A stretch of DNA of 64,000 nt from Branchiostoma floridae (Eukaryota; Chordata; Leptocardii; Amphioxiformes; Branchiostomatidae), in contig NC_049985.1 of the NCBI RefSeq assembly GCF_000003815.2, positions 8,828,251-8,892,250 on the forward strand. Direction: 5' to 3'. Positions 6,021-64,000 of the stretch are shown piece by piece. Every line of letters starts with the position of its first letter. Positions within the stretch are counted from its first letter, which is position 1. The notes beneath the pieces were generated by a model. That model did no database searches and was not told the DNA's origin. It worked only from the letters and a program-made list of their open reading frames with translations. A program made the position numbers and the translations under genes.

Positions 6021-6522
6021 NNNNNNNNNNNNNNNNNNNNNNNNNNNNNNNNNNNNNNNNNNNNNNNNNNNNNNNNNNNNNNNNNNNNNNNNNNNNNNNN
6101 NNNNNNNNNNNNNNNNNNNNNNNNNNNNNNNNNNNNNNNNNNNNNNNNNNNNNNNNNNNNNNNNNNNNNNNNNNNNNNNNNNNNNNNNNNNNNNNNNNNN
6201 NNNNNNNNNNNNNNNNNNNNNNNNNNNNNNNNNNNNNNNNNNNNNNNNNNNNNNNNNNNNNNNNNNNNNNNNNNNNNNNNNNNNNNNNNNNNNNNNNNNN
6301 NNNNNNNNNNNNNNNNNNNNNNNNNNNNNNNNNNNNNNNNNNNNNNNNNNNNNNNNNNNNNNNNNNNNNNNNNNNNNNNNNNNNNNNNNNNNNNNNNNNN
6401 NNNNNNNNNNNNNNNNNNNNNNNNNNNNNNNNNNNNNNNNNNNNNNNNNNNNNNNNNNNNNNNNNNNNNNNNNNNNNNNNNNNNNNNNNNNNNNNNNNNN
6501 NNNNNNNNNNNNNNNNNNNNNN
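6021..6522. other. Assembly gap (N run)
   Basis: 502 unknown bases. Reading frames running through it are artefacts of the Ns. Confidence 0.99.
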
Positions 6523-17000: not shown

Positions 17001-20000
17001 TTTTTTTTTCTTTTTTTTTTTTTTGTCATTTATGTTGTCGTTTTTGTTTTCTTGGTACTCCGCAAATACCTTTGATTGTCAGAAAATTTGATGTTATCTT
17101 CTACCGCAACATCTGCTTTGAGTTTGAGCCAAGGGGTGTGACGTAGTTCGTCGTCACGATGACGTATGATCCTTCCGGCCAATCAGCGTGGTTCCCGGGC
17201 GGGCGGGTTCCCCCACGTCGCGGTGTGTTGACAATGAAGAGGACGTGTGTGTGATCGCGGTAGAACCAAGCGACTGTAAGACTTTAGACTTTAGCACTGG
17301 AGCAAAGTCTTTACAAATTCTTTATTCAAGTGATGGTAAGCGAGGAGAGAGAGGTATAAGGTTGTTATATGCCTGAACACCGGGACGCTGACTTTGTTGT
17401 TGGGTTGTTGTTGTAAATGGATTGCGGGCGTGTGGCCCGGCACGGCGCAGAAAAAAGACGGTCGCTTCAACATGTCGGACAGCNNNNNNNNNNNNNNNNN
17501 NNNNNNNNNNNNNNNNNNNNNNNNNNNNNNNNNNNNNNNNNNNNNNNNNNNNNNNNNNNNNNNNNNNNNNNNNNNNNNNNNNNNNNNNNNNNNNNNNNNN
17601 NNNNNNNNNNNNNNNNNNNNNNNNNNNNNNNNNNNNNNNNNNNNNNNNNNNNNNNNNNNNNNNNNNNNNNNNNNNNNNNNNNNNNNNNNNNNNNNNNNNN
17701 NNNNNNNNNNNNNNNNNNNNNNNNNNNNNNNNNNNNNNNNNNNNNNNNNNNNNNNNNNNNNNNNNNNNNNNNNNNNNNNNNNNNNNNNNNNNNNNNNNNN
17801 NNNNNNNNNNNNNNNNNNNNNNNNNNNNNNNNNNNNNNNNNNNNNNNNNNNNNNGTGATGTATAATTATTTTTTGTGCCTACACGGCGACAGTGACTGAA
17901 CGGTTCATAAACAGCTGTGCGGGAATTCAAACGGTTTTGGTCGTAGATTTTTTTAATTATCTCTTTGTCCTGTTAAATGCAACCAGTCTTGTCAACTTAG
18001 TGCTTAGTTTATACAACAGGAACACGGGGCATACAGAAAAGCTAAGAACCCCCCTCCCCCTCCGATCTCAACAGCTGCTTTCAGTTTGATTTTGTGCATG
18101 GCGACTCCCCTGATTATGAAGACTCCTGGGTTCCCAACGCCGGGTAACTTTACGGCTGGCTGCTTCCTGGCCACCCCGTGCCCACGTCTGGCTGTGAAAT
18201 AGGCGTAAAACAAGACAGCAACAATAACAGTAATATACTATTACTAGTGCCGCCATCCCTTCCTGCGTATCCTGTTCTGTGCCTTCTTTTTCTGCCCCCA
18301 TATTTGTGCAAGGAGCTCCCTACTGTTTTCTAATCCCTCTAGCAGATTATTGTTCAACTCATATGGCCAACTTGCACTATATTTTTTTCAGCAACACAAG
18401 TCCAGTAGTCTTGTGAAGATAACATAATTTTAGCTGGATCATCAGTGGATTACAGAAGCTATAGTATGTTACTGCTTATAATATAAGCAATATTATTTGA
18501 TTTGATATTTCTTTTGGCAAGGTTAATTGGAATATCAATGATCATCATCATTGTTTTGGGCCCATAGAGATATTTTGTATTGCAAAGGCCATGATTTGAC
18601 AGGATGTTCCTGTCAATAAGAACTTCAATATTGACAGAATAAGAATGTTTGGGCTATTTTGAAAATGTTGGGCTGATCCTGTAAATGGTGCAAAAACAAG
18701 ACTTAATGTAATTTACACTCCTTACCAAGTATATAACGTTATGTATTAATGACATTAATTGAAATGTTTGTCCGAAGAAAAGAAGACAAAGACCCTGCCT
18801 TGGCCAGGGTTTGAATGAATGAACTCAGCCTTCATACCAGGTGACCTCTCTTGCACCAATGTTTTGAGATTCAAATTCCTGTACTTCCTGTCAGTAACCT
18901 AAGGGTTTTATCACTTAATATCAGAATGTTGCTGTTTATGGCTACACCGTTTTTCATTGTATACATACACATTAAGCGTCATCTCCTCACCAGTGGTTCC
19001 GGGTTGTACAGATTGTCCTGGGGGCAGTGTTGAACTGATAGTACAATCTGGGCTTGTCCTTTGCACAGTACCCTTTCCATCTATTCCTCCTTCTCCAAAT
19101 CAACCCATGAAAGTACTGCTGTGCCTAGTGAGTGCCATGTATTAGATGGCAGGGTGAGGTAAACATGATAAACGTGTTTGTGTTCTGTCTTCTGATAACT
19201 CAGAAACTTGGCTGGAAAATGGCAACAGACACTTTGATATCGCCACATTTGCTGTGGAAAATGCTGGTATCATCCCCACATTTTTGATATGTCACATCCT
19301 CTTCACTGTTCACATGCAGAAAAAGGCAGTGACTGACCGTACTGTCTTAGCCTGTTTACCAAACCCCAGCCCGATCTCAAGTATCTATCGTGCAATGGTA
19401 TGGTATCCAGGCTAGTACTGTTGTACCTCTGCGGTCATTCAGAAGGTCATTTTTTCTCTTGTAAATCAGGTCATATGCCCCATTCTTCCACATAGGCCTT
19501 TTGTAGACACTAGATTATCAAATAAAACAAAGGATAACTCATGCTTGACAGCTGATACTGACCTGGCCTCTCTAAAAGCCCTATTGAGGAGGACTTGTTA
19601 TAAGTTATCATGACTTCCATCACATAAGCAGAGTGGTATTGGGTTGGACCAGACAGGAATTGATTATCACAGGATGTTTATGTTTGGCCTGTCCATCCTA
19701 GAAAGATAACATTCCCCTCCCCAGTAGGTGATTTGAAACATACCCCTCTGACACTGCTGGAAAGATGATAAAGTAGAGTAGAGTAGAGTAGATGGCCTTT
19801 TTTTGCTTGATTAGACAAAAAAAGTCATGCAAACTAGTATCATGGTATAGAGTGTGTATGTAAATTACACTTCAATAGTGTTGAAGTAAAAACTTGAAAT
19901 GGTTCAACATCCCTTTTTTGGCCCATACTAAGTCCATAGATAATATTATATATAGCAAGAGCTGTCCCATTTTATCTAGGCTGGATTCCAGACCACTGTA

Positions 20001-23000: not shown

Positions 23001-26000
23001 CCACCAGGGCTTGGTCTAACAGTGGTGTTACCCGATACGTCATGTTCTGTTGACACGACCCCCAGGATGGCGGCTCAGTGACGCGCCTACCTTTGCACTG
23101 CATAGATTATGAACAAGCATGTTATTACCAATCAGCTCGCCTGTATTTGCCCTCTGGAACCAATAATGCTATGTCCACATCAGCAACTGTAAACCAGGCA
23201 TTCACCCTTCACCTGTCAATGTGTGTGTCGTAAACTTTGTCTATAGATTCACCTGTTAGATTTACATGTTCTACTTGCTTATAGACTCAATGGTTAGCGG
23301 AGCGAAGGGTGTCTGTAGAAGATGGTAGGATTAATGTTATATAACGATAATTGGCGACTTATGGCGAATTAATGGTGACTTTGTAAGCCTCCAACATAGC
23401 TAACGGTTTTCACCAGAAACTGCATGTAACCCCTTGTTTCACCACTCCACTTGACTTGAATGATAATGATGTTTTTACAGGATTGTTACACACTTAAGTC
23501 CAATTGTCCCAACTCCCTACAGGTAGTTGTTTTGTCCTGACCACAGAATCAGTTGCAAAACAAAGCAACTGTATCTCCATCTTGGGTGGTACAGCCCAGT
23601 GCGGATAACAACTGTGCATGGATCTATGTCTACACTTTTGTGTGCCATCTCACAACATGAAAACAGCCAAAGTAGAGAGGATCTCATTCATGTACATTTT
23701 GCATTACTCCAAATACGTAAGAGCTAACAAAAAATTGAATGCTGCTAAAACGTTTCCATTCAGCCAACCCAACTGACGTCAATTGGGTGAAAGATTCTTT
23801 GTAACTGAAAAATTCAGTTGGTAATTGCCGGACGTCATTCACTATGATTCAGGTTCTTTTTTTTTTACATACAGATCAATGGGAATTCAAAATTCGGGAA
23901 TGGGACCTGAAGTATTGACTGTTTATCAGACAGTGTGCTCATCTTGGCCCACAGGTTGGCCCATCTACATAACTGACGTCAATTGGGTGAAAGATTCTTT
24001 GTAACTGAAAAATTCAGTTGGTAATTGCCGGACGTCATTCACTATGATTCAGGTTCTTTTTTTTTACATACAGATCAATGGGAATTCAAAATTCGGGAAT
24101 GGGACCTGAAGTATTGACTGTTTATCAGACAGTGTGCTCATCTTGGCCCACAGGTTGGCCCATCTACATTTCAAATTCACATCTACGCAATTAGAAAATG
24201 ACAATGTTCTTGGCTTTTCCTTTCAATCCCTAACAATGAAACAGATACCCTGTCCTGGGAGAGTAAAGTGGTTTTTCACAGCCTCACCATTCACTACTGA
24301 TGGCCACAGAGTGGGTGATAATTATATCATTCAGATGTCCCTCCCCCTGCTCCACCCAGTTTTACCACTTCTATTCTTCTTGGACAAAGGAAGATCCCAA
24401 GAAGATACTGATAATTTGTGTCGCACAAATGTGCAAATTGCTTGAGAGGCCCTGTTAGATTATTCTGCTATTCCAGACAGCCTTTTGCATGATGTGCATC
24501 TCAGTACAACCAAAACTGCCCAATAAGACCACTTTGGGACTGAGAAAGAGGACCTATGGAATTTGGTCTATGTTCTAGATGGGCGTATCTGTATCTCTAT
24601 GTAGTCGGTATAACCGCCCTTCGGCCTAACATACCAGCTTCACTAGTAGTCACTTGAACAGGTTTCACTGTGTCAGTGTGTATGTTCAAAGTCCTACCTA
24701 TGCACCATCTAGGACTATTACAGGCAACACAACAGAAAAAGAATCCAGTTTTATCTATTGAATATTTTAAAATACTTAATGTCTGTATGTAAGGCTTCTG
24801 ATGATATTGTTTGGTAATAATTGTCTTTCACAAACTTCTAACAGGTGGAAATGAGTGAAATTTTTTAACATTATTTTAAACATTGACCAATCAAACATTA
24901 CCGTTATACAGTGTTAAAAAGTATGTGCCATTAATGGCATATGACAACTCTAGTGTTATAGCTGACACACACCAACTTTACCTTGTAGGTAGGTTGCTGT
25001 AAACAGGATAGGGTGACTTGTTTTCCACCAAAAAATTCAGGCTAAGTCAATAAAAGATACCATTTCCTGAGGTATTTCTAGGGTGAGAAGTTATAATGTA
25101 TCGAAAATTATACAAAGGCACATGGAACAAATGATCCTGCTGACGTGCACAGGTGACGTCATCAGTGGTGTCATGCTCTGTTGCCATTCAGTGGTTGATT
25201 GACACCTTTTCAAATGGGGTAAACTTCTTTTTGATCAAGAATAATGCTTTTCAGTCAGCCATGAAAATGGCCTCGTGCCAAGGCTTACATAGTGGGTAGC
25301 TATATATAGAGAGCTATGGCTTTATGTGTCAGTAATTAGTGGCCTTGAGTTGGTGGAAAACCCTGATGTGCAGACACACGTGTGTAAGAGGTGTTCACCA
25401 TTCTCTACCACACCAGTGTTTCCATGTATCTCTCGTCCTGGATGGTCTTGATTTTTGGGTGGCAGACAGCTTCGTCACCAAGAAAGATAGGTTGTACTTG
25501 TAGAACAGGAGGTATAGGTTCTGGCCCCCTAGCATTTGATTTTGGAAATGTAGGGGCATTTTTGCTCAAGCTTTGAAAGAGGATATCTCAAGAAAGTCGA
25601 GACAGATTTCCTTGACTTCATGCTTCAATACATAAATAACTTGATTTTGGACAGGCAGAATATTGACAGATGCACTTGTGCAGATAAAAACCTTCTTTGC
25701 ATAATGAATGCAAATATATCCTACTTTCTTTGTGGGAAATGATGAGAATTTTATACTTAGGACAAAAATGTTGCCAAGCATTAATTATGTAAATGTTAAT
25801 CATTTGCATAATCAATAACAAAATGTTATACCTGGATTCTGCCAAAGGAAAAGACGTCACACATACAACATGTGTCATCATCATCATCGGTCGGCTGCAA
25901 GCTTTCTCCAGTTCCGTCTATCAGCAGCGAGTTGGCGTAACCGCCTGGGGGTGATCTGGCCGTGATGGTCTGCCATTAGCCGTTGGATGTATGTGTAATT

Positions 26001-29000: not shown

Positions 29001-32000
29001 GCAAATGCTACTGTAACAGTGTTGTTTTGAGTGCAAACTGCACTTGGCTCCTTGATATAAAAGAAAGCTTTTAGTTGAAGTTTCACTCCTCACTTTCTCA
29101 AGTTTCTGGCATATTCATTTTCAGGCTATGTCATAATACATGATTATCCATTGTGAACATTAGACCTTACCAATACCTATGCTCCTAACCTTATAACTTT
29201 CAAGTGCTCAATGTGATTTATTCTTCCACCAGCCAAACCACCTTCACAACAGCAACCCTGTTGACTTTGTCTGGAGACATTGATATCGTTTGGTACACTG
29301 TGCATGTTCATTAGGATGGAGTTAGTTTACCTGACTGACTGTTCTTCTGTTGTTACAGAACTTGAAGCTATAGACGCTTGCAAGTGGCTGCGAGACTGTG
29401 GGTTTCCTCAGTATGCTCAGATGTATGAAGGTGGGTTGTTTACTTTCTTGTATCATTAGAATTCCAAACTGAAGTTTGATACACATAAGCACATGCTTTG
29501 TTTCTTGTTCATGCCGATTTACTGAAAAGTGGCCGGAAGCAGAAGGAGGTACCGTCCTACTGCATATATCCTTTTTAGCCATTCGCTCAGATTATAGTCC
29601 CCATGCATGTAACTTCTTGTGAGGTAGATGAGCTAACATTGAATTTTTTTTCAATCTTATGTAGATTCCTGCTTTCCTGTGGATATAACGTCAGTGGAAA
29701 CCGATCACGACTTTCTTGACAGGGACTCTATACAATCATTGATTCGGTGAGTTTCAGTGCACTTAACAGTATATCCACAACATCCTGTGTGATATCATTC
29801 AGTGCAGTATAGGATATCTTGTGGCGGAATACAGTATATCCTTTGGTGCAGTATATCCCTCATGGTGGTGTGGGATATCCCACAGGAAGGGGTGCAGCCA
29901 TCCCTAAGGACCGTGAGAATCTGAGTTCGAAGCATGCCACAAAAACCCTACACCACGCATGTAGGATGAGAATTTATAATCATGTTTTTTTATAACATCA
30001 TGTGTACACTGGCAGCAGGGTAACAGTCCACTTGAGAAAAAATGCTTTGAATGCCAAGTATACTGTTAAATCCTGTGGGACATCCACTCCTATGATGGAT
30101 GTCCCATTCCACACCACAGGATATTCCATACCACACCAGGGGTTATCTCCCATTGCTACCTGGGATGTCCCATACCGCACCACGGGGTATCTTGCACAGC
30201 ACTGCAGGACTTTGATACCGGAATACCAAAATATGTACTCTTGTTGTCGAGCAGCTGTGTTAAATTATTTGAACTGGCTCCTGAGCTACGATTTACTGAT
30301 ATTGTCAGGCCCACCTCTGAGGGTTGGTAGGAGGGTTTAGTCTAGTAGGAAACTGACCCATACTTGTTTATTCCGCTGGGTTTGAACTGTGAAACAAATA
30401 CCTGTGTTACTGGGCTATAGGGCTGAGGTCATATGTTTGCAGGAGGTATGCAAAGCAAACAGAGCCTTTTCCATAGGGGGTCAACAAACAGGTCAGCATG
30501 GAGAACCTTTGGCTGTACTGAGGTATCATGTCAGGCAGTTTTTGTATCCAGCAGAATTTTTTTTATTGGTAAATGGAAAGGATAACTGTCTTCCCAGGCT
30601 TTCGTGAATAAAGTAGATCTAGAAATAGTAGAATGTCAGGTTTGAAATACCACCTGCATGTGCAGATAGAATTGTAGTTACACCTAACATTTGCAGTTCA
30701 TGCATAACACATATCAGATGTATGCATGACACCATTCAAGTGAAGAGTTCCAGGTCCACAGATATATATGATCATCACTTTTGTGGGGATGTCTGTCAAA
30801 CCCTTCACATCCAGGTTGCATGCTTGAGTACCTGCATCTACTTTTCATTACTTGCGCACATTCCAACCCTTCAGTTCAGATAAGAAAGTATTTTTGCTTT
30901 CTCCGCAGACGACTCCGGACACTGAACAGATGTGCCAGCATGAGGATTGAAGCTCCAAGGCCGCAAGTGGTGAGTTCAGCCATTCTAAAAATAGCCTTAA
31001 TGGCTTTACATAAACATTTGCACACTACTTTATTTACTCAGTGAACTGGTATTTTCTTTTGTCAACTTCTGTTCAGAGAATATGACAAACCTGCAACACA
31101 TCATACTCCTCGAAGCTCCCTTGTGTTCTATTGACATCAAGTATCACGTATTTGACGCTAAGGCAGTATCTTAGAATAGGAAAGGTTTGTGCTTTAACAA
31201 GATCGAGTCCATCATATCTAAGTAGCCATAGTGATAAACAAACAGAGTATTTGCCTGAGCTGCCAGGCATTTTTGCATGGCCTGTGCTGACCTACTTGTC
31301 CCCTGTCTGTTCTGTGTCAGGTGGATGACTCTGATGAAGATGAGCAGTGCGCCATCAGCAATAAGTGGAAGTACCAGCGCGTCAGCCGGCGCTGGTCCCG
31401 ACTGGAGGACTTCTCCCAGGTACCAGAGGTGACAGTGGATCTGGCGCCTGTCCAGTCCTCAGACATTCCCTCCCAACTGGCCACATCCTACAGTAGTTAT
31501 GACAGTGTACTGACTGATAGTAGTGACAGGGTGGAGAGCCACAGCTACACTAGCGCCAGCAGCTTTGATAGCCAGACCGGGGGCTACTTGCGCAGCCCTG
31601 GGATCAAGACCTCAAGAACTGTGTCCAGCCCGAGGACCAAATCACCACATCCCACAGACTTTCCTGGACTACTCCCAGTCACGATAGAAATTGAGCCAAA
31701 ATCACCCCCGCCAAATGACAATGGTAGGGACCACCGGGGAGTGAAGGGGCTTCTGAAAAGGATGGACACATTGAGGCGAAAGCGAAGTCGGAGTTCCAGC
31801 AGGAAAAGGACCCCCAGCAAGGACCGTGTTGTGATCAGCGGGCCAGTGCTTCAGGAGAGCACCATGAATCAAGCCAAGATGGACCGGCTGAACTGTGTAG
31901 ATGTGAGAAAGACTGATGAGAATTCCAACGTGCAGGGGAAGCTGGGTGAGGTAGTGAGGAGACAGCCTGGGCAGGCGGCGAGCCCCCACTCAAGGAGCCG

Positions 32001-35000
32001 ACGAGAAGGATGTGTTTTTGATGACGATATCCTAAACAGTTTGAAAAACCCAACTCCCAAGTACAGTCCCAACACCTACAACAGGCGAAACGAGTCTCTC
32101 TCTCGCCGTGAAGCCCTCAACAGAGGCAGTGTCGTTCGGAACGGTTGCATTTCCACAGCTCGCGGAAGCATGTTGAACTACCATACTGGAAGTTTCAACC
32201 TCGGTAGCGGTACATGCAAGGACGTTTGGCGCCCGGTCATTAAGAGACAAGCCTCAGAAGACTCTCTAGCAACCCATAGTATCTATGACAACGTTCCCAC
32301 GTCATCGTTGGACACGGCAGGAGACATCGCAGCACCACAGGACAAGGTTGCTGCGGTGGAGGAAATCTTGCAGAGCATCAGCGGACTGAGCGAGGAAATC
32401 ATGTCCATGAGCCTGTCAGACTTTGATGAGGACAGTAGCCATAACCCCAGCAGTGCCCCTCCCACACTGTCGCCCCTGCACCAGCAGGTCCGGCTGGAGA
32501 TACAGGACAGGCCAGCGTTCCCGGACAGTGACATGGGCACGTCCAGCTCATGGGACGAGCTGGAGGTGAGAAGAGGAGTCACGCAGAAACCAAAGGACTC
32601 AGGAATTGAGACGACCTGTTTGAACAAGCTTGCTGTGTAAGTTGTCGCAACTTTATTGCACAGTTCATCACAGATATTGAGTGTTTTTGTTCATCCATGC
32701 TGCATTTTCTGTATTTTATTTGCAGTGGTTTGTATCCTTTGTGTGAAGATTAACTAGAAAGAAGAGTTAACAGAGAGTTGTTCCTTGCTTGCAGTGGCCG
32801 GCGGTCGCGGGTGCAGTGGCACAGTTTCCAGAAGTCGCAGCACCCCCTCCTGCAGGTCCAGCCTCTCGAGGTCCATGTCTTGTCGGCAGGGCAGCTTCTT
32901 GTCCTGCGCAAACTGTCACTCCTCAAGCTCACCGCTCTGATGGAGAGATACTCGCCGTCCAACCGTAGTGGCTGGAACTGGTGAGCTCCTCCAACATCAC
33001 TTAACAGTAATTTTTGTTCTGCTGGAAGTTTGGGCTCTTACAGGTGCTTTCTTCCAGCACCTGTTTTCTTCACAACCTCAGTAGTTTTGTTGTCTTGGAG
33101 CCCAGCGACAGAAACAGCTGCCTGCCCCAGTGCCACAAGGCAGAAAAGGCAACAAATAGACAACAACAAAAAGTAACCAACAGCGCACAGTGCCGCACAC
33201 CTGTAATACTGTTTACCAAGCTTAACAAACATCCTTCTGTAAATAATTGAAGGATAGATTTGTCCTGTCATGAATACATTGTTTGCTGTTCCTTTTCTGT
33301 TATGGCACTTAGGAGATAGGTACATATGTGCAGCTGTTTTGTTTTGAGTGAAAGCCTGGTCCTGTGGCCCCCTAGCAATGGGGCTGTAAAACCAGCACAC
33401 TAGATTGTTCAATAGTCAGGGCAAAGTTCAAAATGACTTGCTAACAACTCTACATGTATATTTGAATGCCTCTATCACAAATTGTGATCTGTTCTCGGAA
33501 CTAATAGTTTGCTTTGTCTCACAGGGCGATGCCACGTTTCATGAAGAGAATACGTGCTCCTGAGTATAAAGGTATGTACTTCAATCATAGTCATTTTTTT
33601 TTTTTCAAGAAATTATTTCAACCGAAATGCTCTAAATATATAGATGTCATCATTGCAGGAATGCTACAAATGTACAGTGTATTGTATTGTGGGCAAGTAC
33701 AACAATGTACAGATATAGGTAACCACAGAAGGAAAGGAATAAAAAGTTCTAAAGGAGAATTTTGCCCTCCCCATTCTGACAAGTGGTATTGACAGTGTGG
33801 TTTAACATGTCTTTCCATCCTTTGTGTGCAGATAAAGCAGTGTTTGGGATCCCCCTTCTGCACGTGCTCCAGCGTACAGGCCAGCCCCTCCCACAGTCCA
33901 TCATCTACGCCATGGACTACCTGCGCAGGACAGCCATGGACCAGGTCGGAATCTTCCGCAAGTCCGGAGCCCGCTCCCGCATCCAGGCCCTGAAGCGCAT
34001 GAACGAGACCAATCCAGACACCCTCAGCTACGAGGGAATGATGTGCTACGATGTGGCAGACATGTTGAAGCAGTACTTCCGCGAATTGCCTGAACCGCTT
34101 CTTACGAACAAGCTGTCCGAGACCTTCGTCAGCATCTTTACACGTAAGTTTTCTATGTGAGCATCTTTTTCTAATTAAATAATGATTGTCTTAACAATTG
34201 TCTTGATCTACCATTCTTATTCTTCAGTTAGGTTTTTGACATCAAGAAAGTTCTTTTCTAGTATCATTTATGTATCCTGCTTCAGAACAAGTTTTTCTTT
34301 TCCTCTTAGAATAACATGTAGTTTTTGAAGTGATGTTGAGTGCTGTTGTGTTGTCCCTTGTCTGCAGGTCTGCCCACGGAGCTGCGTTTACAGGCCATGC
34401 AGGCCGCCATCATGCTGATGCCAGACGAGAACCGTGAAGTTCTGCAGACCCTCCTGCTCTTCCTGCGCGAGGTGGCCCAGAACGTGGAGGAGAACCAGAT
34501 GACCCCGTATAACCTTGCCGTGTGCTTTGCCCCGTCCCTTTTCCACATCGCTGGCCCACGCCGTGGCGATCACTCCCTCACAAGGAGACACCGCTCCGGA
34601 CGGCCTAATGAGAAGGAACTGAGTGAGAATGTGGTAAGAGTTGCTATCATCTGAAATTTTGATATTTTCCATTCTCTTCATATCACTGCACTTGTTTTCC
34701 ACCTGAAAGATTTTTTACACTTAGAAATTACATTCAGAAATGACAGGGTCTCCCTAAGCCACACTCATATTTCTGTAATGTATCCCTCTAGGCTGCCCAC
34801 GAGTGTCTCAACATGATGATCACTGAATGCGAGGAGCTTTTCCAGGTAAGTCCAAGACTTAGTATAGAACGCAAAAACTCAAGGTGTAAAATTGTCAACG
34901 GGTCTTCTGCAGTATTCTTCAGAATTCAAGTAACCTATCTTCCAGATCAAACATTTGGTCAGTTTCCATTGTCACGTGTTTGTATGATTCAGCTGTCTTG

Positions 35001-36867
35001 CAGTACAGCTTCCTTGCAACACAAAAGGCTGTCTTGAACCCTTGTCCGTGGTTGGCTCTTTCACAGCCTGCTTGAAAATCCTATGGCATCAAAATTGTAC
35101 GACAATTGCTTAACCTGTGTGACTGCGCCCTAAGTCTGAGTCTCCTCTGTGCTGTGTCCACAGGTCCCAGAAGACACCATGATGCAATGTCGTTTCTATG
35201 TCCACAGGTCCCAGAAGACACCATGATGCAATGTCGTTTCTATGTCCACAGGTCCCAGAAGACACCATGATGCAATGCCGGTTCACCTACATGGAGCAGG
35301 GCGACCCCGTGACCCTGGACCAGCTGGGGCGCAAGAAGTTTGACGAGAGCTCTGATTGGCACAACTACATCGAGAACTGCATCCAGGGGCTGCTGAAGGT
35401 GGGTTAGTCAGAGGGTGTAGAAATGAAACTCTTTTACTGTACTTGGAATAACACACAAGTGACTCCTGATCATTGGTACCACAACAAGAAACATTTCTAT
35501 CAGAAATTACATACAATGCAACGCAACTTAACAAATATGTTTTGTCTTAATGTGTCTGTCAGGAATCTCGAGACAAGTTCAAGGGCTGGGTGTCGGTGTC
35601 CTGCCCAAATGATGTGGAGCTCACCTACAAGAAGGTTGGTGACGGCCACCCTCTCCGCCTGTGGAAGTGTGCCGTGGAAGTCGAGGCTCCGCCTGTGGAA
35701 CTGCTCAACAGGGTGCTGAGAGAAAGGTGAGCACTGCTTTGTTATCTTCTTTGGAAGGAGCAATTTGTGGTTTATTGCTCAAGGTTATACAGTAGAAGCA
35801 CATCAGATTAATTGCACAGAATCCCAAACTGGTGCGGTCCAGCTGGATAATTTTGCATTGTTGCACAATCCCGGTAATTGCACGAAATACACTGGAGTGG
35901 GGCATGCTATTGTATAGCTGTTGTGCAAGACAGAAAAAACTAAAGAGCAAGATCGTATTAGTTTATTTGCAATTGCCCAAACGACAGAACTTGGATTTGT
36001 ATATTGCCAGAAACTCGAAGACAAAATAAATGCTTAACCTGATGCCTTCATTCCACAGGCACCTCTGGGACGAGGACCTGATAAAATGGCGTGTTGTAGA
36101 GAAGCTGGACAGACAGACGGAGGTGTTCCAGTACGTCACCAACTCCATGGCTCCCCACCCCACCCGGGACTACTGCACGCTGCGGTCCTGGCGGACGGAC
36201 CTGCCCCACGACACCTGCGTACTGGTGGAGACGTCCGTGAAACACCCGGAGGCTGCAATAATGGGAGGGCTGCGCGGGACAGTGCTGGCATCACGGTACC
36301 TGATCGAGCCGTGCGGGTCGGGGAAGTCCAGACTGATACACATTGTCAGAATAGACACAAGGTGAGGATAGCTTTCTGTTTATGGGAGGGGTGGTTTGGG
36401 CTTCATGTAATAGTGAACTGGTCCGTTAGGTCAGTCTGTTTTGTGGCAAACTGTAATGTTTGCCACCAATTGCTTCCCAATAATTAACTTTTTTTTTATT
36501 ATACAGCTACTATTATGCTGTGCAAGAGTAAATACTTAAGGATAGTGAACAAAAACTAAAAATTTGGAACATTCTAATACCGGTAGATTTGTGAAACTTT
36601 TGACAGAATGGATTATGCTTGAAGTAAAAAATAGCACACAAAATAATGGTTTTCCTTTTTGAGATTCATTTCTAATCAACTGAATAATCTGAAGTTGTTG
36701 TTCTGACTTGTGTACAGTTACTAAATTGTTTTGTTTGTTGTGTTGAATCCAGGGGTCGCTCTCCTGAGTGGTACAACCGGGCGTACGGCCACATCTGTGC
36801 CGCTCACGTGGGGCAGATACGAGACTCCTTCAGGCACTCGAACGAGGGACCAGAAACAAAGGTCTAG
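14022..36867 (+). CDS. DLC-family RhoGAP with SAM and START domains (DLC1/STARD13/STARD8 type)
   Basis: Rho GTPase-activating protein; family members act on RhoA-C at focal adhesions. Coding exons: 14022-14183, 14710-14859, 14984-15017, 29359-29430, 29665-29746, 30909-30969, 31321-32636, 32795-32980, 33525-33571, 33832-34143, 34368-34633, 34792-34845, 35252-35398, 35563-35726, 36059-36361, 36753-36867. They sum to 1156 codons plus stop with every phase consistent (human DLC1 about 1091 aa, STARD13 about 1113). The first exon probably starts at an acceptor before 14016. Domains: SAM about 116-187 (KWLRDCGFPQYAQMYE), serine-rich linker from one 1.3-kb exon, RhoGAP about 704-896 with the arginine finger R746 in GIFRKSG, START about 915-1150 (HLWDED, SRYLIEPCGSGKS). 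SIYDNVP near residue 509 matches the tensin-SH2-binding tyrosine motif of DLC1. It may be the single pre-duplication orthologue of the three vertebrate genes. The three N-terminal exons are less certain than the rest. Confidence 0.92.
16862..16886. repeat. CAAGGAGGTT hairpin repeat
   Basis: CAAGGAGGTT, an A-run, then ACTCCTTGG form a short palindrome. Similar palindromes are at 14599-14619, about 41330-41356 and about 47160-47190, so this is a dispersed short element or element end. Confidence 0.55.
17120..17483 (+). promoter_or_regulatory. GC-rich promoter-like block with a start codon at a gap edge
   Basis: Contains CRE-like TGACGT sites, CTTCCGGCCAATCAGCG (ETS plus CCAAT), GGGCGGGCGGG GC boxes and a fair donor (GATG|GTAAGC after 17335). 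Further on, GCTTCAACATGTCGGACAGC places an ATG at 17472 (M-S-D-S) immediately before the N run. This could be an internal promoter and alternative first exon of the DLC-family gene, or the start of an unrelated transcript hidden by the gap. Confidence 0.4.
17484..17854. other. Assembly gap (N run)
   Basis: 371 unknown bases inside the large DLC-family intron, directly after a possible start codon in GC-rich sequence. Confidence 0.99.
19348..19414. repeat. TAGCCTG palindromic element, copy 2
   Basis: TAGCCTGTTTACCAAACCCC at the left and GGTATGGTATCCAGGCTA at the right flank the shared core GATCTCAAGTATCTATCG. More decayed than the copy at 5663-5731. Confidence 0.65.
23771..24169 (+). repeat. 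Tandem duplication of a 200-bp unit
   Basis: Units 23771-23970 and 23971-24169 both start AACTGACGTCAATTGGGTG and end CCATCTACAT. They appear identical except for one T in a homopolymer. Either a very recent duplication or an assembly duplication. Confidence 0.95.
26788..27228 (+). CDS. Candidate alternative first exons of the DLC-family gene
   Basis: An ATG at 26788 opens 54 codons plus two bases (start MDEADTRWKVPTVYYLSE) to a strong donor (CGGAG|GTGAGT, exon end 26951). A 29-base exon at 27200-27228 (acceptor ATGACAG, donor GGACAG|GTAAGG) takes that phase and leaves phase 1, exactly what the SAM exon at 29359 needs. The joined product would read ...CRSWT-ELEAIDACKW, mirroring ...REQT-ELEAIDACKW of the longer isoform. 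Total would be about 1105 codons, near the vertebrate lengths. The peptide is not one I recognise and the short exon could be chance. Confidence 0.4.
29771..30200 (+). repeat. Degenerate minisatellite of GGGATATCCCA-like units
   Basis: About eleven loosely spaced variants of the palindromic core (G)GGATATCCCA, GGGATGTCCCATACC and AGTATATCC occur in the intron following the second SAM exon, with CATACCACACCA between several of them. Unit length is irregular. Confidence 0.5.
35164..35295 (+). repeat. Triplicated 44-bp unit carrying a splice acceptor and exon start
   Basis: Three tandem copies begin at 35164, 35208 and 35252, each opening with GTCCCAGAAGACACCATGAT and, for the first two, ending in CTATGTCCACAG. 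Each copy is preceded by a CCACAG acceptor. Only the third acceptor (35251) keeps the START reading frame; use of either earlier one gives VPEDTMMQCRFYVHRSQKTP and then a stop. Confidence 0.95.
35788..35925. mobile_element. TACAGTAGAAGC MITE, copy 1 (decayed)
   Basis: Starts TACAGTAGAAGC, followed by TTAATTGCACAGAATCCCAAA and further stretches shared with the element at 58089-58262. The right end is less well preserved. It lies in an intron of the DLC-family gene. Confidence 0.65.
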
Positions 36868-47762: not shown

Positions 47763-59192
<11,430 letters not shown>

Positions 59193-62277: not shown

Positions 62278-63887
62278 TTACAGCAGTGGTGACCCTTGCC
62301 ACTCAGGGGGATGCAGTTCTAGCAGGCCTTTAGGCTCAGAAAGGGACCAGGAACCCAGCCCTGTAGTAGCATTTTGACAACAAGTTTCCTTCACATCATC
62401 AAGTATATTATCCCAGGGCCCATTATGGCCAGACCCAGTTAAAGTGACTTCACCTATCTCCTCTGACGTATGTATTGGCTTGCCCATATCTGGGGTATCT
62501 GAAGGACTAGGGCACTCATCCCTAATCGCATTAAGGATGTCTTTTGCCTTATCCACCCCTGCTAGGAGCCCACCATGCACAAACCCCATGTACCTCTCGT
62601 GAAAGGCCTCCCCACCAAAATACAGCCTTCCTACAGGGGCCTTGTATTTCTCTGTGCCATCTCTGAAAGCACCAGTAGGAATGCGTGTAAAGGCACCGAG
62701 AAACAAGGGGTCCTGGGACCACCTGCTGACAAATATATCCACTGGTGTGGGGACGTCTTCTCCGTACAGGTTCCTCAGGACCTCCATGATTTCTGATGCC
62801 ACCGTGCTGTTGGGCAGACCCTCCACTCTCTTGGACTCCTCTCCTGTGACGGTCACGGCGAGGATGTTGGTCCCGGGCGGATGGCAGCCCTCGGCCTCCA
62901 TGTCTTGCATGACTGGGTAGTAGCCCCTCTTGGGATGCGCGTGGAAGATGTACTCCTTCCCATCCCAGAACTTGAAAGGAAACTTGAGGAAGATCTTGGT
63001 GTAGTGGCACATCTCCACCTGGTAGATTTCCTCCAGTTTCCAGTCAGGAAGTTCTGGGACGAAGGAGATGTGGTCACTCTGCAGCACCCCCAGGCTAAAG
63101 GTGGTCAGGGCGTATTCTGCCGAATACTCCGACCCATCGCTAGTCCTCACGACTACGCCCTGATTGCTCCACTTTATCTCATCCACACATTTGTTAAACT
63201 GGAGCCGAGGATCTTGCTTGTCGAGAAAAGTTCTCGCCATCTCCTCCACTATGAAGCCAAAGCCACGTTGGTCGGTAACGAAGTATTCCTTGTCATCAAA
63301 ATCAACAAGGGTTTCCTCATCTTCATTCTGCAGGAGTGAGGTGACGTCTGGTGTAGCACCGTTTTGGAAATCGAAGGAGAAGTACTCGACCACCTTGTCG
63401 ACAGGGGCGATGGCCTTCCAGCCAGCCAGACGTAGAGCCACGCGGATGGAGGTGTCATTGCCGTCTTCGCTGATCTTCCTCTCCAGCATGGCGTGGGCGT
63501 GCTTCCGCGCCCTCTGCAGGTCCGCAAACCTGCTGACGGCATGCTCCGTCACATCCGCGCCATCGTCATCTCGAACCACCATCTTGGCGACATCCTGCAC
63601 CTTCCCCTTCAGGTCCAGCCCCTGAGCCAGTTCCCAGACGGGGTTTCCGCGTATCCCGTGGACCCAGTTCGCCCCCGCCTCGATCTTCACTCCCCCAAAG
63701 TCTACCAGACGCATCCGCCCACCGATCCTGTCTGACCCCTCCAGGATAATGAAGTCCTGTACCCCATTGTCCTGCAGGGTTTTTGCTGCTGCAATGCCTG
63801 ATATACCAGCTCCAATAATGATGACTTTAGCACTGGTCCCTCTGAACTGCTGCGCCATTCCCTCTCCACCCAGTCTGTAGACAGCTC
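62278..63887 (-). CDS. Flavin polyamine oxidase-like enzyme (5' end outside window)
   Basis: FAD-dependent amine oxidase, closest in style to polyamine/spermine oxidases, which oxidise spermine or spermidine to an aminoaldehyde and hydrogen peroxide. Counting from the ATG at 63858 (MAQQFRG): FAD-binding VIIIGAGISG at 12-21 with the following acidic ILEGSDRIGGRM, GANWVHG with the active-site-region histidine, YTKIFLKFPFKFW holding the lysine expected near the flavin N5, and the C-terminal FAD-contact block RLYFGGEAFHERYMGFVHGG. The exon probably begins at an acceptor (TTCTCTATAG, boundary 63888/63887), so the ATG at 63906 would be intronic and a further 5' exon, perhaps with a signal peptide, may lie beyond the window. 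About 70 extra residues follow the usual end of the fold. Nearly all of the enzyme is in one exon, unlike typical multi-exon animal homologues. Confidence 0.85.
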
Positions 63888-64000
63888 CTATAGAGAACCA
63901 GAGCATGTGGTCAGATATAGGCAGACTTTTGCTGACAAATCACAGAAACGAAAGTCAGACATTTATTATTACTGGGCTTAAAATCATAATCAGTGTCTGA

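Follow-up and report, generated by a model that had tools for sequence, protein, structure and literature searches.

A gene that by its domains belongs to the DLC family in the lancelet Branchiostoma floridae carries a 44-bp unit three times in tandem, at the intron/exon boundary between its RhoGAP and START coding parts. Each copy supplies a splice acceptor, and just the third keeps the reading frame. We favour, with moderate confidence, the explanation that this is a recent tandem duplication in the assembled haplotype, which would lead to unregulated, leaky and partly wasteful splicing with a mild loss of output, and that no conserved switch is involved. The window referred to below is the whole stretch of 64,000 bp that was analysed, part of contig NC_049985.1.

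Joining the ten exons between 31321 and 36867 at GT-AG borders, with acceptor 3 in use, gives a single open frame that ends at a terminal stop. Pfam places a RhoGAP domain (PF00620, E 6.2e-42) and a C-terminal START domain (PF01852, E 1.8e-38) in the product, and a SAM domain lies upstream of RhoGAP (PF07647 SAM_2, E 1.9e-05, 25.2 bits, the cut-off being 20.5). The closest solved structures are the START domain of STARD13 (2pso, E 2.4e-93) and the RhoGAP domain of DLC1 (3kuq, E 2.4e-77). Judged by these matches, the gene is a member of the DLC family (DLC1/STARD13) with the SAM-RhoGAP-START order. In the 453-residue query the alignment to 3kuq ends at residue 209, the exon that follows the array starts at about 212, the alignment to 2pso starts at 240 and the Pfam START domain at 252. 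The sequence-only reading had the repeat holding the first bases of a START exon; this is right as to the exon start, but those bases encode the RhoGAP-START linker.

Other parts of the window also contain recognisable coding material. Exons resembling an AAA ATPase (PF00004, with the matching piece near 56.2 kb) lie at 52773-58750 on the plus strand, and we take them to resemble AFG2/SPATA5. On the minus strand, 62278-63939 holds an open frame of 553 residues for a flavin amine oxidoreductase (PF01593) with no interrupting intron in that stretch, and 887-2704 holds one of 605 residues that by eye looks leucine-rich-repeat-like and in which a TKP-ETSE motif recurs near the C terminus. Runs of N occupy 6021-6522 (502 bases) and 17484-17854 (371 bases).

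TRF reports the array at 35155-35284, with period 44, 3.0 copies, 97% matches and a score of 246; the period is exact over 35155-35277. The first two copies agree at all positions, and the third departs from either at unit positions 36, 39, 43 and 44. A tandem run of three such similar 44-mers is not chance. Each unit opens with TGTCCACAG/GTCCCAG, that is, nine intron-end bases and then the exon start; the motif CCACAG ends at 35163, 35207 and 35251. The threefold, nearly unchanged unit, the donor and the three acceptor positions given by the sequence-only reading were all recovered (Table 1). When the 150-bp array region was searched against the animal's own genome (513.4 Mb, 431 contigs), the one match was the window itself, on a contig of 25.95 Mb. 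A second tandem repeat in the window, at 23771-24169, consists of two near-identical copies of a 199-bp unit (TRF 99%) that contains CCCACAG/GTT; two acceptor-like sites of at least 5.9 on the plus strand fall in it, as scored with a generic matrix.

Table 1. Positions in the window of the gene, the repeat copies and the splicing features discussed in the text.
Feature	Position	Strand	Remarks
DLC-family gene, 13 modelled exons (further 5' exons left out)	29359..36867	+	SAM, RhoGAP, START
SAM exons	29359-29430, 29665-29746, 30909-30969	+	upstream of the ten-exon part
Upstream exon, RhoGAP end	34792..34845	+	donor CAG/GTAAGT after 34845
Branch-point candidates, acceptor 1	A at 35113, 35122, 35133, 35139 (35113..35139)	+	generic matrix
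Repeat copy 1	35155..35198	+	9 intron-end bases (TGTCCACAG) + 35 exon-like; acceptor 1, exon start 35164
Repeat copy 2	35199..35242	+	same sequence as copy 1; acceptor 2, exon start 35208
TGA read from acceptor 1	35224..35226	+	within copy 2
Repeat copy 3	35243..35286	+	4/44 differ; acceptor 3, exon start 35252, sole frame-keeping one
Exon from acceptor 3	35252..35398	+	RhoGAP-START linker, then beginning of START
TGA read from acceptor 2	35268..35270	+	within copy 3

Splicing from donor 34845 to acceptor 35252 gives EELFQ followed by VPEDTMMQCRFTYMEQGD, and the frame stays open into START. From 35164 and from 35208 the same donor gives an identical tail of 20 residues, EELFQ followed by VPEDTMMQCRFYVHRSQKTP, and then a stop. 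Both results agree with the sequence-only reading, which had predicted START from the third acceptor alone. All nine other acceptors tested (eight within the array and the one at 35067) run into a stop within 20 added codons. An in-frame rescue through an inner acceptor, such as the one at 35171 (+81 nt, frame 0), was rejected, because the frame stops after KTP. The premature stop is the ATGATG of the following unit read in another frame. Since it sits in the next unit, the same product would result whatever the number of extra units; moreover, a unit read in the START frame hits the TGA of the next one, so extra units that are frame-neutral would stop too. The outcome is thus all-or-none, as had been claimed, but not solely because 44 is not a multiple of three.

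From the premature stop to the exon end at 35398 there are 172 nt (acceptor 1) or 128 nt (acceptor 2), and three exon junctions, that at 35398 included, lie 3' of it in the gene model. By the 50-55-nt rule, NMD of the acceptor 1 and acceptor 2 messages is expected. The truncated protein, if made, would keep SAM and RhoGAP and lose START, so the earlier claim of a START-less product or an NMD target is in line with the frames and stop positions. In the ectoderm of the fly, deletion of START from Cv-c is described as abolishing activity, whereas joint deletion of SAM and START does not, and the authors propose there that SAM represses the protein and START relieves the repression (PMC5854602). 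According to the same account, START-less constructs retain some activity in Malpighian tubules, and START-deleted DLC1 is cited there as resembling lack of function (PMC5854602). In the fly testis, a GAP-independent role of START has been described (PMC9678365). Because of the Cv-c and DLC1 deletion results, carried across species, a START-less lancelet product is more likely to be inactive than overactive.

Splice-site and branch-point scores were obtained with a generic matrix. With it, tract plus AG score 5.94 for acceptor 1 and 6.13 for each of acceptors 2 and 3. These values fall inside the span of 2.43-7.49 covered by nine further acceptors in this gene (the three SAM-exon acceptors left out) and in the top 1.1% of the 3989 plus-strand AGs in the window. 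Hence at least two acceptors of native tract and AG strength lie downstream of one donor. The acceptors of copies 2 and 3 are identical over their last 20 bases. Branch points give a different picture: on the generic matrix, candidates before acceptor 1 reach 4.63, 3.99, 3.73 and 3.35, among the best, whereas the best for acceptors 2 and 3 is the ATGATG, at 2.25, and the best for each of the nine other acceptors is higher than that (2.97-5.93). By sequence, therefore, the array acceptors match in pyrimidine tract and AG only, with unequal branch-point candidates, and the description of them as equally good holds for the former and not for the latter. RNA structure hiding one of the acceptors was considered and rejected, as the mean unpaired value across the last 20 bases was 0.33-0.39, no useful difference.

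We propose that a short tandem duplication would have arisen across the intron/exon boundary in one haplotype of the gene, and that one further exact copying would have produced a set of three acceptors spaced by 44 nt, every one of them having a tract and a CAG of its own. Donor 34845 would then face an unregulated, leaky competition among the three. Acceptor 3 would yield the normal SAM-RhoGAP-START protein; since the frame is open over ten exons when it is used, it probably still serves. Acceptors 1 and 2 would yield one shared truncated frame, and with it NMD or a START-less SAM-RhoGAP protein, probably inactive. As to acceptor order, the first suitable AG is taken in the account of branch-point scanning (PMC1431707), whereas in a human-cell reporter library the first of equal-strength tandem 3' splice sites was not preferred and order was irrelevant (PMC6783452); as far as these two accounts go, the literature points both ways. 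Leaky competition is supported because the array acceptors score alike and because equal tandem sites are described as order-neutral (PMC6783452). First-AG scanning and the better branch points at acceptor 1 count against it.

If acceptor 1 won outright, the allele would be close to null for START and not leaky. A START-null or strongly hypomorphic allele of this kind, in which acceptor 1 with its native branch point nearly always wins, the assembled haplotype yields little of the full-length protein and the other haplotype compensates, is in our judgement unlikely, and the foremost of the alternatives. It draws on the top branch-point candidates lying at acceptor 1, on first-AG scanning as described in PMC1431707, and, provided that the contig stems from the published assembly, on the merging of that assembly to one haplotype of a diploid animal (PMC7269912). 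The lack of order preference among equal tandem 3' splice sites (PMC6783452) speaks against it, and so does the rest of the gene, which is open and intact, though a young allele would not have decayed yet.

Copies 1 and 2 are the same and share junction sequence that is absent from copy 3, which points to a duplication made in two steps, the second of them exact. The alignable coding part shows two substitutions when copy 2 is compared with copy 3, both of them synonymous (chance 0.03, or 0.02 over 42 nt), as a coding role of copy 3 would predict. The same two substitutions put more T into the tracts that precede acceptors 2 and 3 (6.13 vs 5.26, generic matrix), so that the synonymous pattern is open to a second reading; with only two changes, neither reading is firm. 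Being synonymous in the coding copy and improving the tract scores of acceptors 2 and 3, these changes would also suit a silent shift of the boundary, in which nearly all splicing goes to acceptor 3, copies 1 and 2 are now intron, and the protein is unchanged. In support of such a shift, acceptor 3 alone keeps the frame. However, acceptors 1 and 2 retain a full tract and AG (5.94 and 6.13, generic matrix), and the match of copy 2 to copy 3 over the last 20 bases of the acceptor gives no local basis for exclusion; this explanation, next in line, is rather improbable.

A more speculative proposal, and one we consider a long shot, is that the number of units varies between individuals and sets the share of productive DLC mRNA at about 1/copy number. 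Each extra unit would add an equally strong unproductive acceptor with the same stop, and the productive share would thereby fall. If true, a minisatellite would tune Rho signalling with the protein unchanged. Copy-number variation in the population would also provide an allelic series for DLC/START dosage.

We surveyed tandem arrays with a period of 20-300 and a match of at least 93% in 20 stretches of 10 kb from contig C7 and in the window. Sixteen near-identical short arrays were found in 255,750 non-N bases (12 in the contig C7 stretches and 4 in the window), covering 3,393 bases or 1.3%. Three of the 16, the present one included, contain an acceptor-like site of at least 5.9 on either strand, as scored with the generic matrix. 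Under random placement, about 0.17 array hits are expected over the 13 modelled acceptor boundaries of this gene, and 28,192 protein-coding loci are given for B. floridae (PMC7269912). An array on a splice boundary would thus be unusual for one gene and ordinary genome-wide, before selection. Since arrays are common in the sample, a mutational accident suffices, and an array on some splice boundary is unsurprising; the built-in choice that the sequence-only reading saw in this gene finds no support. A regulated switch, in which control of acceptor choice by tissue or stage would turn START-containing DLC on and off, fits the all-or-none coding outcome and the inactivation of relatives by START deletion in one setting (PMC5854602), but identical copies give a regulator little to distinguish, and the stretches surveyed hold many similar arrays. 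We hold it to be very improbable.

Sanger reads are normally longer than 130 bp, and because they normally span an array of that length, an error in the number of copies is unlikely if the contig stems from the published Sanger assembly. That assembly is described as resting on about tenfold Sanger data from a single diploid animal, whose haplotypes were first assembled separately and afterwards merged (PMC7269912). Another amphioxus locus is described as highly variable in haplotypes and indels (PMC2632668). An artefact in which one or two copies are false and divergent haplotypes were merged would agree with the merging of haplotypes (PMC7269912) and with the allele-like differences between copy 3 and copies 1 and 2, but an exact third copy is hardly the product of a merge error and a single read can hold the whole array; we hold this to be just as remote as the switch.

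The locus is a natural experiment in 3' splice-site choice, with one donor, three near-identical acceptors and one productive outcome. The best branch-point candidates stand before acceptor 1 only, and the use made of the three acceptors would separate first-AG from equal-use models. It would also bear on whether a repeat placed across such a boundary has no effect, carries a cost or serves to tune output.

Neither a triplicated acceptor nor this gene in lancelets was recognised in the literature searched, which consisted mostly of titles and abstract openings with few subscription papers, and no published precedent for duplicated acceptors in human disease was recognised there. The closest precedent found comes from potato: in its RdRp gene, a tandem duplication over an intron-exon boundary is described as creating a new intron through a cryptic GTAAG donor, with RNA support (PMC4974935). 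As in that case, the lancelet duplication runs from the 3' end of an intron into the exon that follows, with tract and AG copied; unlike it, the array has three copies, and its best donor, GTCCCA, scores -3.57, where three real donors reach 6.13-8.59 (generic matrix). No GT above -3.57 was found in 35140-35300. By its sequence, the lancelet array multiplies an acceptor and does not amount to a demonstrated gain of an intron. The dual-specific AGGT arrays of UBC and VCX3A (PMC10809524) likewise have CAG/GT at the same place in each unit, but the lancelet GTCCCA donor is very weak, and the unit is neither a multiple of three nor a protein repeat. Although AGGT occurs in each copy, its donor half is far too weak for a site that serves as both donor and acceptor, and dual-specific or recursive splicing at CAG/GTCCCA was rejected. 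The array shares with competing tandem 3' splice sites (PMC6783452) the offer of several acceptors to one donor, and differs from them, NAGNAG included, in its 44-nt spacing with copied tracts and in an outcome that is a stop, not a codon-level change. It does not belong to the NAGNAG class, whose AGs lie three bases apart. Finally, the lancelet gene has the SAM-RhoGAP-START order of DLC1, STARD13, STARD8 and fly Cv-c, with a triplicated acceptor between its RhoGAP and START coding parts.
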